Shown here: one piece after another, positions 34,198-36,213 of the stretch
Position numbering within the stretch: position 1 is the stretch's first letter
Layout: each line of letters opens with the position of its first letter
Position numbers and translations under genes: made by a program
NCBI GenBank assembly: GCA_016195095.1
Contig: JACQAE010000049.1
Span: 1-46,969, forward strand
Length of the DNA: 46,969 bases
Reading direction: 5' to 3'
From: Pseudomonadota bacterium
Lineage (GTDB): Bacteria; Pseudomonadota; Alphaproteobacteria; Rhizobiales; Xanthobacteraceae
Notes under the pieces: generated by a model
Told to the model about the DNA's origin: nothing
Seen by the model: only the letters and a program-made list of their open reading frames with translations
The model's database searches: none

Positions 34198-35175
34198 ATG
34201 AGATCCGCAAGCGATTGGAGCGTCCCTCCACTCGTCCAGCCCAAGCCCGAGGACTACGCCTTCGATCTCGACCAGGCGCTAGCCTCGGTTGTTGGGCTGC
34301 GCGCGATCATTCCCGCCGACGCGTTTACCGCCGAGACGCTCGGCACCGAGCGTGCCGGACATGGCGTCGTCATCCGCGGCAACGGGCTTGTCCTGACCAT
34401 CGGATACCTGATCACCGAAGCCGAGACGATCTGGCTGACCTTCAACGACGGCCGCGCGGTCCCCGGCCACGTCCTCGCCTATGACCAGGCGACCGGATTC
34501 GGCCTTGTTCAGGCCTTGGCGCGGCTTGATTTTCCGGCCCTGCCCATCGGTAATTCCGCCGCTATCGAAATCGGCGAACGGGTGGTGGTCGCCGGCGCGG
34601 GCGGTCGGCAACGCTCGGTCGCCGCGCGCGTCGTGGCCAAGCAGGAGTTCGCCGGTTATTGGGAATATGTGCTTGACGAGGCGCTGTTCACGACGCCCGC
34701 GCATCCCAACTGGGGTGGAACGGCGGTGATCGGCAGCGCCGGCACGGTGATCGGCATCGGTTCGCTGCAATTGCAGCAGGCGCGCGAGAATGCGCCGCCG
34801 GAGAACCTCAACATGATCGTCCCGATCGACCTGCTCAAGCCTATTCTCGACGACCTTCTCAAGTTCGGTCGTCCCAATTGCCCGGCGCGTCCGTGGCTCG
34901 GCCTTTATGCGACCGAGATCGAGGACCGTATCGTCGTGGTCGGCGTGTCGGACAAGGGACCGGCGCATCATGCCGACGTGCGCACCGGCGACCTTATCCT
35001 CGCGGTGGCGGGTGACGTGGTGCATTCGCTGGCGGACTTTTTTCGCCGTATTTGGTCGCTTGGCGATGCCGGCATCGACGTGCCGATCACGCTTTACCGC
35101 GACGGGCGCACATTCGCCGCCCGCGTGACCTCCGGAGACCGCAATACGTTCCTCAAGGCGCCCAAGATGCATTGA
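34198..35175 (+). CDS. HtrA/DegP-like PDZ protein with a degenerate protease site
   Basis: A 325-residue protein with a trypsin-like fold (about 25-225) and one C-terminal PDZ domain (about 230-312; ARPWLGLYATEIEDRIVVV then GPAHHADVRTGDLILAVAG). The fold markers are present, but all three catalytic residues are gone: Tyr70 stands for His in GLVLTIGYLI, Gly100 for Asp in DQATGFGLVQ, and Trp172 for Ser in HPNWGGTAV. It has no signal peptide or membrane anchor, so it seems cytoplasmic. It cannot be a serine protease and may be a binding scaffold or regulator. The ATG at 34198 follows GGGAGAG. Its 3' end overlaps the DUF1194 gene by 23 nt on the other strand. Confidence 0.85.
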   Translation: MRSASDWSVPPLVQPKPEDYAFDLDQALASVVGLRAIIPADAFTAETLGTERAGHGVVIRGNGLVLTIGYLITEAETIWLTFNDGRAVPGHVLAYDQATGFGLVQALARLDFPALPIGNSAAIEIGERVVVAGAGGRQRSVAARVVAKQEFAGYWEYVLDEALFTTPAHPNWGGTAVIGSAGTVIGIGSLQLQQARENAPPENLNMIVPIDLLKPILDDLLKFGRPNCPARPWLGLYATEIEDRIVVVGVSDKGPAHHADVRTGDLILAVAGDVVHSLADFFRRIWSLGDAGIDVPITLYRDGRTFAARVTSGDRNTFLKAPKMH

Positions 35176-35992
35176 GGCGGCCGGCGGCTTCGCCGCCGCA
35201 TGCCGGAGCGCCTGGCGCAGCATGGAAGTCGCCGCACACCAATTTCTTGGGGATTTGCCGCCGTCGCGGTAGCGATCCGTCGGCCGCTGCGGAGGAAAAA
35301 GCGCGCGGGATCGGCGGCAATCCGGCGATCTCGGAGATCAGCTTTCTGCGCACCGCGTCGCCGAACACCTCGTAACTCTCCGCGGCGATGACGAAGGAGC
35401 CGGGCCCGCCGATGACCTGATCGAAATAATAGCGATCAAGGCCAATTTCGAGCGCCAATATCGGCAGGCCGTTGATCACCACGCCGGCGGCGACCGCCTC
35501 GTCGCGCGCGATGGTCACGCTGCGCCCGCGATTGTTGGAGCCGTCGCCGGAAATGTCGATCGTTCGTTTGAGGCCCTTGTAGGGGCTAGCGGCCAAGAGC
35601 GTCATCGCGTGGTCGATGGCGCCGCTGATCGAGGTGCCGCCGCCAAAGAGTTGGCGCGGCGCGTTTTCGATCGCGAAGGCGACAGCTTCCGCCGTGGCCG
35701 TGTCGCTGATCGCCATCCACGGCACGACTTGGATCTGCAACATGGGTCCGGTCCACTGCACCATCGTTACGGCGATCGATTGCGTTGGCCCGGTGCGGAT
35801 GGCGTTCAAGACGCGCGGGTCGCGGAACGCCTCCGCGTAGCCCTTGATCTGCAGCGCGAAACGCGAATTGCTCACGCTGCCGGAGGCGTCGACCGCGAGC
35901 ACGAGCGCAAGATCCACCTGGTTCTGGGCGACTGCGGGGCGCGCGGCGACGAGGAGAGCGGCGAGTATAAGCGCGACAATAACGGTTCGCAT
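35153..35992 (-). CDS. DUF1194 von Willebrand factor A-like secreted protein
   Basis: A 279-residue protein with a signal peptide ending at AVAQ (23) and a VWA-like fold. The MIDAS motif D-x-S-x-S is intact (Asp35, Ser37, Ser39 in VLAVDASGSVS), as are the conserved Thr (GGGTSISGAIDHAM) and the later Asp in DISGDGSNN. DUF1194 proteins are periplasmic and of unknown role, probably binding partners through a metal ion. The C-terminal 50 residues are Ala/Arg rich and do not look like the family, which suggests the frame has run into the 3' region of the facing gene. Confidence 0.85.
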   Translation of the reverse strand: MRTVIVALILAALLVAARPAVAQNQVDLALVLAVDASGSVSNSRFALQIKGYAEAFRDPRVLNAIRTGPTQSIAVTMVQWTGPMLQIQVVPWMAISDTATAEAVAFAIENAPRQLFGGGTSISGAIDHAMTLLAASPYKGLKRTIDISGDGSNNRGRSVTIARDEAVAAGVVINGLPILALEIGLDRYYFDQVIGGPGSFVIAAESYEVFGDAVRRKLISEIAGLPPIPRAFSSAAADGSLPRRRQIPKKLVCGDFHAAPGAPACGGEAAGRLNASWAP

Positions 35993-36213
35993 TGGCGGGC
36001 TCCGCCGCGCCCAAGCGCATTCCTTATCTGGCGCGACAACGTTCCCCCCGCTATACCCGATGCCGGCGCGTTCCATGCGCCCTTGCGGGGACGGCGCGCT
36101 TCCCATCCAAGCTCCGCGTGGCCAGAACCGCGCGACAATGCGCCGCGTTGCCAGCCGCCATCGGCGCCGGCCGCGACCGGCCTGGGCATGCGTCATGCGC
36201 GGCAATTCGTGGC

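Follow-up and report, generated by a model that had tools for sequence, protein, structure and literature searches.

What does a protein built like an HtrA protease do once all of its catalytic residues have been replaced? This question is raised by a gene at positions 34198-35175 of a 46,969-nucleotide stretch of DNA (the window; contig JACQAE010000049.1 of assembly GCA_016195095.1) from an alphaproteobacterium of the family Xanthobacteraceae. An initial annotation, made from the sequence letters, had read the product as an HtrA-like pseudo-protease and had proposed a peptide-binding adaptor, perhaps controlling a true protease. The sequence comparisons, structure prediction, and selection analyses described here indicate that the gene encodes a conserved pseudo-HtrA, which would be non-proteolytic and cytoplasmic and would probably work by binding. 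Among the parts of this reading, pseudoprotease status is, on sequence grounds, close to certain and a binding role is likely; the lack of proteolysis, the cytoplasmic location, and the binding of peptides are what we infer from these results, and an adaptor role, a trimer, and the identity of the partners are guesses.

Predicted fold and domain architecture

The open reading frame (ORF), its strand, and its length were confirmed: it starts with ATG, stops with TGA, and encodes 325 residues. The gene and the domains of its product are located as follows:

34198..35175, + strand: gene of the predicted leaderless HtrA-like pseudoprotease (ORF; orthologues)
34357..34758, + strand: trypsin-like (protease-fold) domain, residues 54-187 (Pfam Trypsin_2; AlphaFold model)
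34894..35127, + strand: PDZ domain, residues 233-310, with the conserved loop RPWLG (231-235) at its entrance (Pfam PDZ_2; loop counts)

Trypsin_2 (62.8 bits, Pfam cut-off 27.6) and PDZ_2 (45.7 bits, Pfam cut-off 27) were the only families found in the protein. An AlphaFold model built from 29 sequences was confident (mean predicted local distance difference test [pLDDT] 91.7, predicted TM-score [pTM] 0.88) and HtrA-like, with DegS, DegQ, and Deg1 among its Foldseek and VIA-align matches. The top Foldseek match was DegS (E-value 1.1e-21, whole-chain TM-score 0.51, root mean square deviation [rmsd] 7.4), and in VIA-align the Z-score was 25.4 for plant Deg1 and 24.8 for DegS. For the protease domain alone, 179 residues superposed on HtrA1 at 2.5 A; a different PDZ angle in the model would explain the looser whole-chain fit. 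DegS chains were also the nearest solved relatives by sequence (E-value 2.5e-15). The intact HtrA fold and PDZ domain proposed at the outset were thus borne out by the family matches and by the model. The protein scored below the curated cut-off of every NCBIfam model listed; the best of these, TIGR02037 (degP_htrA_DO), gave 82 bits versus a cut-off of 416.2, and the NCBIfam models that every one of the 29 aligned members matched were those of the general HtrA/DegP/DegS/DegQ families.

Replacement of the catalytic residues

The residues that occupy the former catalytic positions, and the loops around them, were located by alignment and compared across 200 distinct homologues:

34405..34407, + strand: Tyr70, at the place of the catalytic His (alignments; Tyr in 197 and Phe in 3 of the 200 homologues)
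34495..34497, + strand: Gly100, at the place of the catalytic Asp (alignments; Gly in 200 of 200)
34708..34710, + strand: Asn171, at the place of the oxyanion-hole Gly193 (non-Gly in 198 of 200)
34711..34713, + strand: Trp172, which most likely takes the place of the GNSGG Asn (chymotrypsin 194) and not that of the Ser (third pairwise, profile, and multiple alignments)
34714..34716, + strand: Gly173, most likely at the place of the catalytic Ser (profile and multiple alignments; Ser in 31 of 200)
34642..34728, + strand: remodelled former active-site loops, residues 149-177 (lowest entropy; ratio of nonsynonymous to synonymous substitution rates [dN/dS] 0.064 over residues 150-178)

The pairwise and multiple alignments agreed in placing Tyr70 at the His and Gly100 at the Asp, as the initial annotation had stated. 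Its third assignment, of Trp172 to the Ser, is probably wrong, the majority register placing Gly173 there. In the third pairwise alignment, HPNWGGTAVIGSAGTVIGI was paired without gaps with NPGNSGGALVNSLGELMGI of DegS, and the same register was obtained from (i) family-profile alignments to two solved proteases; and (ii) a multiple alignment with three active HtrAs. The second pairwise alignment contained a one-residue gap that set Trp172 on the Ser, and the first was gapped differently at this point. Most likely, to go by the alignments, Gly173 takes the place of the Ser, Trp172 that of the preceding Asn, and Asn171 that of Gly193; the pairing of Ser with Trp172, supported by one of the three pairwise alignments, was judged less likely than that with Gly173. 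Whichever register is taken, the window protein has lost all three catalytic residues and its oxyanion position is unfavourable, being occupied by a residue other than Gly; when the register is shifted by one, this position becomes residue 170, which is Gly in just 4 of the 200 homologues.

The nearest precedent for the family is MamO, an alphaproteobacterial HtrA relative that the cited passages describe as binding metal and as having a degenerate triad, a bulky Trp in its L1 loop, and a residue other than Gly at 193 (PMC4794232). The same passages argue from the MamO structure that a non-Gly residue at this position works against the active conformation of L1, with its open oxyanion hole, and that the bulky L1 Trp obstructs the peptide path (PMC4794232). 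By analogy, no cleavage would be expected of the window protein, in which both the 193 and the L1 changes are present and the His and Asp are lost as well. MamO also suggests a different use of such a domain, in which the dead protease fold binds a metal ion or another small ligand and not peptides. His169, near the old Ser, is found in 177 of the 200 homologues and would suit a ligand of this type; it is, however, missing in the other 23, and the window protein lacks the transporter domain of MamO and carries a PDZ domain instead, which makes metal or small-ligand binding an improbable main role.

Conservation and distribution of the replacements

The replacements were examined for their spread among the homologues. 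Position 172 was aromatic in 198 of the 200 (Trp in 183, Phe in 13, and Tyr in 2) and His in the remaining 2. This set is rich in Bradyrhizobium; thinning to 136 sequences at 80% identity left the pattern unchanged (position 70, Tyr 133 and Phe 3; position 100, Gly 136; position 172, Trp 120, Phe 12, Tyr 2, and His 2). Tyr70, Gly100, and Trp172 were invariant in the 29 aligned orthologues, an alignment that holds 29 of the 30 orthologue loci (L023 was left out). Homologues with an intact triad were sought, and no such member was found among the 200, with neither the His nor the Asp kept in any of them (0/200); the nearest triad-bearing protein outside the family, from genome G107, scored 109.5 bits. 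Loss of the triad is, as far as the homologues tell, ancient.

The same comparison bears on whether the protein might still be an enzyme, one that relies on other residues of the rebuilt region. In keeping with this, the polar or aromatic residues R52, E74, D96, W155, E156, Y157, S189, N205, and R315 are kept in 196-200 of the 200 homologues, and Ser is present at position 173 in the 31 already counted. Gly at the Asp place in every homologue and the near-universal non-Gly residue at 193 nonetheless argue against serine-protease chemistry, and the nucleophile place is variable (G, S, A, T, Q, P, or N), so that a retained catalytic activity appears very unlikely from these residues.

When genomes were surveyed, an orthologue of at least 56% identity was detected in 30 of 61 (the source genome, its family, and its order), comprising 26 of 37 from the family and 4 of 24 from the rest of the order. 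Among the matches listed, 12 at 40-52% identity formed a sibling group, and the next lay at 31% identity and 74 bits. Two peptide patterns, run against named genomes, recovered at least 590 related loci, of which the best 80 were kept; the titles include Bradyrhizobium, Rhodopseudomonas, Rhodoplanes, Methylobacterium, Pseudolabrys, and Stella. Because one of the search patterns contained Tyr70, the presence of this residue in 80 of the 80 named loci is not independent evidence. A model-based sample of the class is fairer than the peptide-pattern scan: 67 of 289 alphaproteobacterial genomes matched at an E-value of 1e-30, and confirmed members were present in 65. The two left out were G107, with an HtrA that has His, Asp, and Ser, and G124, with a copy that is cut by a contig end and has Phe at 70 and Gly at 100. 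Across the phylum, 299 genomes were sampled and 45 matched at an E-value of 1e-25; 28 of these scored above 250 bits, one of them from outside the class, and the other matches scored 92.6-109.6 bits. Members scored 257-582 bits over their best piece (110 for one contig-truncated member), and no HtrA-like match from outside the family exceeded about 110 bits, a bimodal distribution that sets the family apart from active HtrAs.

Matches on plasmids were also found (15 listed of 26 records), two of them with an annotated product under the match, namely 'S1C family serine protease' and 'signal protein PDZ'; the former annotation is contradicted by the sequence. In several plant-associated genera the gene is thus carried by large secondary replicons; the listed records, which include Azospirillum, Rhizobium, Neorhizobium, and Phyllobacterium, are ~0.76-2.8 Mb in size.

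Selection on the rebuilt active-site region

Selection was estimated from 400 pairs sampled from 809, of which 391 were usable for the whole protein and 386 for residues 150-178. Over the whole protein the median dN/dS was 0.151. It was 0.137 in the protease domain and 0.185 in the PDZ domain, compared with 0.064 for residues 150-178, which form the loops that carried the Ser and the oxyanion hole. Scanning residues 10-310 of the 136 non-redundant sequences placed the 29-residue stretch of lowest entropy at 149-177 (0.93 bits, versus 1.73 for the median stretch and 1.69 for the best PDZ stretch); the consensus of the rebuilt region in the clade of the window protein is EFAGYWEYlLDEAiFTaPaHPnWGG. 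Low dN/dS and low entropy together identify the rebuilt active-site region as the part of the protein most guarded by evolution. The PDZ loop RPWLG is likewise kept across the family, with P232, W233, and G235 each present in 153 of the 154 sequences of this clade, and from its sequence the kept PWLG motif suits peptide binding by the PDZ domain. Beyond the PDZ domain, a tail of the form S-x-DR-xx-FLK-x-P-x-LH (residues 312-325, 35131-35172), where the model is uncertain, is kept in orthologues, and its final His is present in 76 of the best 80 of the at least 590 named loci; this tail could be a PDZ ligand, either for the protein's own domain or for that of a neighbour.

Loss of the catalytic residues would also fit a decaying pseudogene. 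This explanation was rejected and has next to no probability, given the median dN/dS of 0.151, the absence of stops inside the listed matches, and the presence of the gene in 30 of the 61 genomes surveyed, its own included.

Since the same replacements are kept in many related bacteria, the protein probably binds other proteins and does not cut them. In the mechanism we propose, peptide cleavage would have been lost long ago from an HtrA-type protease domain followed by one PDZ domain, and the active-site region would have been rebuilt through (i) the change of His to Tyr or Phe; (ii) the change of Asp to Gly; (iii) the exchange of the oxyanion Gly for a bulkier residue; and (iv) the placement of a Trp just before the old Ser. 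The rebuilt region would then have been held by strong selection. The PDZ groove may take C-terminal or extended peptides, the rebuilt cleft may provide a second, highly conserved contact surface, and the two surfaces may act jointly, holding client proteins or a regulatory partner or presenting them, possibly within a trimer. The family would thereby be a natural example of an enzyme fold that has become a probable binding protein and whose most conserved part is the old active site.

A leaderless clade and its mainly exported siblings

HtrA proteases are known mainly as exported proteases and are normally exported. The open frame at the locus has 331 codons, six more than the ORF, and with six codons only before the start no upstream leader is possible; the absence of an export signal, noted initially, was confirmed in this way. 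When the 200 sequences were arranged in a tree, with three active HtrAs as the root, the window protein fell in a clade of 154 (support 0.77), in which Tyr70, Gly100, and Trp172 are each present in 154 of 154. A hydrophobic leader, called by a simple hydrophobicity rule and not by a trained predictor, was absent in 153 of the 154 and present in 42 of the 46 sequences outside. Of the four sequences called leaderless outside the clade, two (L215 and L218) look exported by eye. Without a signal peptide, proteins of the window's clade should remain in the cytoplasm, and the earlier proposal of a cytoplasmic, PDZ-bearing pseudo-protease is well supported by the sequence, the structure prediction, and the conservation. 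Fitch parsimony gave five changes and an exported root, although the three outgroups were set as 'exported' by assumption, which favours such a root. With an exported root, loss of the leader in the window's clade is likely, not proven, and would make the family a case of a change of cell compartment as well.

The exported siblings (L039-L050 and others) have the same replacements at 70 and 100 as the window protein, similar FAGxWEY and HPxW motifs, and 40-52% identity to it. Unlike the window's clade, they carry signal peptides, position 172 is sometimes Phe, Tyr, or His, and Ser is found at 173 in 16 of the 46 sequences outside the clade versus 15 of the 154 within it. The members of the window's clade that have Ser173 with the His and Asp gone include L153, L154, L155, L163, L167, L171, L172, L175, L176, L180, and L181. 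A mostly leaderless subgroup (L166, L167, L168, L170, L171, L172, L180, and L208) bears the N-terminal motif NGH(R/K/H), which is absent from the window protein.

When the 65 genomes with confirmed members were compared, 31 held a member of the window's clade only, 14 a member of the other group only, and 20 one of each, and none held two of one kind. This distribution suggests two old paralogues with different jobs. It is possible, though we offer this tentatively, that they form an ancient two-compartment pseudo-HtrA system of Alphaproteobacteria, in which one non-proteolytic HtrA acts outside the cytoplasmic membrane and a leaderless one inside it, often in the same genome, each using its strongly conserved, rebuilt cleft as a new binding site along with its PDZ domain. 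If so, a module that once cut proteins would now recognise them, and would have been relocated to the cytoplasm. Dominance over DegP, an effect that the initial annotation had put forward for testing, is unlikely for a leaderless protein because of the normal export of HtrA proteases, and is more plausible for the exported siblings.

Gene context and regulation

Neighbouring genes were compared at 133 family loci of at least 7 kb, drawn from both groups and with flanks of ~4-6 kb, whose ORFs were searched by blastp. Eight window neighbours, named from family matches and gene order, were sought: HupE/UreJ, a TctC receptor, a HAD hydrolase, DUF1036, DUF1194, ArgB, EngB, and YidC. HupE was detected near 1 and TctC near 8 of the 133 family loci, and the other six at none. 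No magnetosome-related gene was present among the eight neighbours scanned, the rest of the genome not having been searched for such genes. Among the 45 largest neighbour clusters listed, 2 include three further loci each besides named ones and are ABC-permease-like and thioesterase-like, as read from the sequence. One cluster of 37 loci consists of an esterase-like gene, so labelled from its sequence, which in 36 of them is found downstream of the family gene and in the same orientation; its loci are named ones, mostly Bradyrhizobium, and include L067, L069, and L075. The window's downstream neighbour differs in being a convergent gene, a DUF1194 ORF (35153-36205, minus strand), and the 3' ends of the two genes overlap by 23 bases (35153-35175). 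The two annotated plasmid neighbourhoods (of four, the other two being without annotated genes) had no gene in common, and PADLOC gave no defence match for the gene or for two of its neighbours.

These neighbourhoods bear on the proposal of the initial annotation that the protein is a regulatory partner that joins or feeds an active protease. The source genome has eight Trypsin_2 places including the window gene, and at least two of the other proteins have the triad, in keeping with such a partnership. In one further trypsin-like protein of this genome (L008, contig C263; open frame of 805 codons), the motif LTDRDLV puts Asp where the His would be, which suggests that another degenerate protease may exist there. 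Counter to such a partnership, HtrA proteases are normally exported and the window's clade is leaderless, and no neighbour gene is shared across genera, though not every neighbour has been identified. A precedent is again provided by MamO: in the cited passages, MamE-dependent proteolysis requires MamO, but not MamO's own triad (PMC4794232). Inactive MamO, being both required for the activity of another HtrA and able to bind metal, lends some probability to both roles; we consider a protease-partner role rather unlikely and a metal-binding one less probable still.

Promoter patterns were counted upstream of 196 genes. EcfG matches numbered 3 under a strict pattern (0.2 expected from shuffles) and 6 under a relaxed one (1.9), and there were 2 RpoH-like (0.9 expected), 0 sigma-70 (0.45), and 1 RpoN (0.15) matches; these are too few to claim control. 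The DegP/HtrA proteins combine protease and chaperone functions, and a non-proteolytic HtrA that had kept the domain layout could have kept its chaperone side, acting as a holdase on unfolded cytoplasmic proteins. Conservation is, however, concentrated in the one short stretch at 149-177, and the RpoH counts give no sign of heat-shock control by this crude test; a holdase function is therefore unlikely.

Several of the above results weigh against a cytoplasmic protein that works by binding through its PDZ domain and rebuilt cleft: (i) the Ser at position 173 of 31 homologues means that the Ser place is not uniformly lost; (ii) the higher dN/dS of the PDZ domain than of the protease domain disfavours the former as the main functional site; (iii) the whole-chain superposition on solved HtrAs is loose; (iv) the window neighbours are not conserved around family members and point to no partner, substrate, or co-regulated gene; and (v) 43 of the 45 largest neighbour clusters listed contain only named loci, mostly Bradyrhizobium by title. 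Nonetheless, a non-proteolytic, cytoplasmic pseudo-HtrA that acts by binding is the explanation that we favour.

Comparison with known systems

With the HtrA/DegP/DegS/DegQ proteases, which we take to be MEROPS S1C, the window protein shares a trypsin-like domain followed by a PDZ domain, its best sequence and structure matches, and a kept PDZ loop. It differs from them in the lost triad, the lost oxyanion Gly, scores below the NCBIfam cut-offs, and the missing export signal. A literature search in which subscription journals were mostly outside the scope returned MamO, plant Deg proteins, and other pseudoproteases, and no description of this family. A survey from 2008 covered 91 prokaryotes, with Bradyrhizobium and Rhodopseudomonas among the genomes, and in the passages cited it counts 42 inactive homologues of serine proteases; its supplementary list may name members of the family (PMC2605481).

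Among plant Deg proteins, the second protease domain of AtDeg7 is described in the cited passages as inactive and as taking part in trimerization (PMC3473262). The inactive plant domains, compared here by description only, are HtrA-type with mutated triads, as in the window protein; AtDeg7 differs in being a large, multi-domain, eukaryotic protein. The likeness to MamO, which is also known here by description only, lies in the HtrA origin, the non-Gly residue at 193 (Asn171), and a bulky Trp (Trp172), the latter being two positions away from the Trp of MamO. Unlike MamO, the window protein has neither His nor Asp, and the PDZ domain and the missing transporter domain set it apart as well. The bacterial pseudo-HtrAs treated in the cited passages are magnetosome proteins (PMC4794232), whereas the family described here is widespread.
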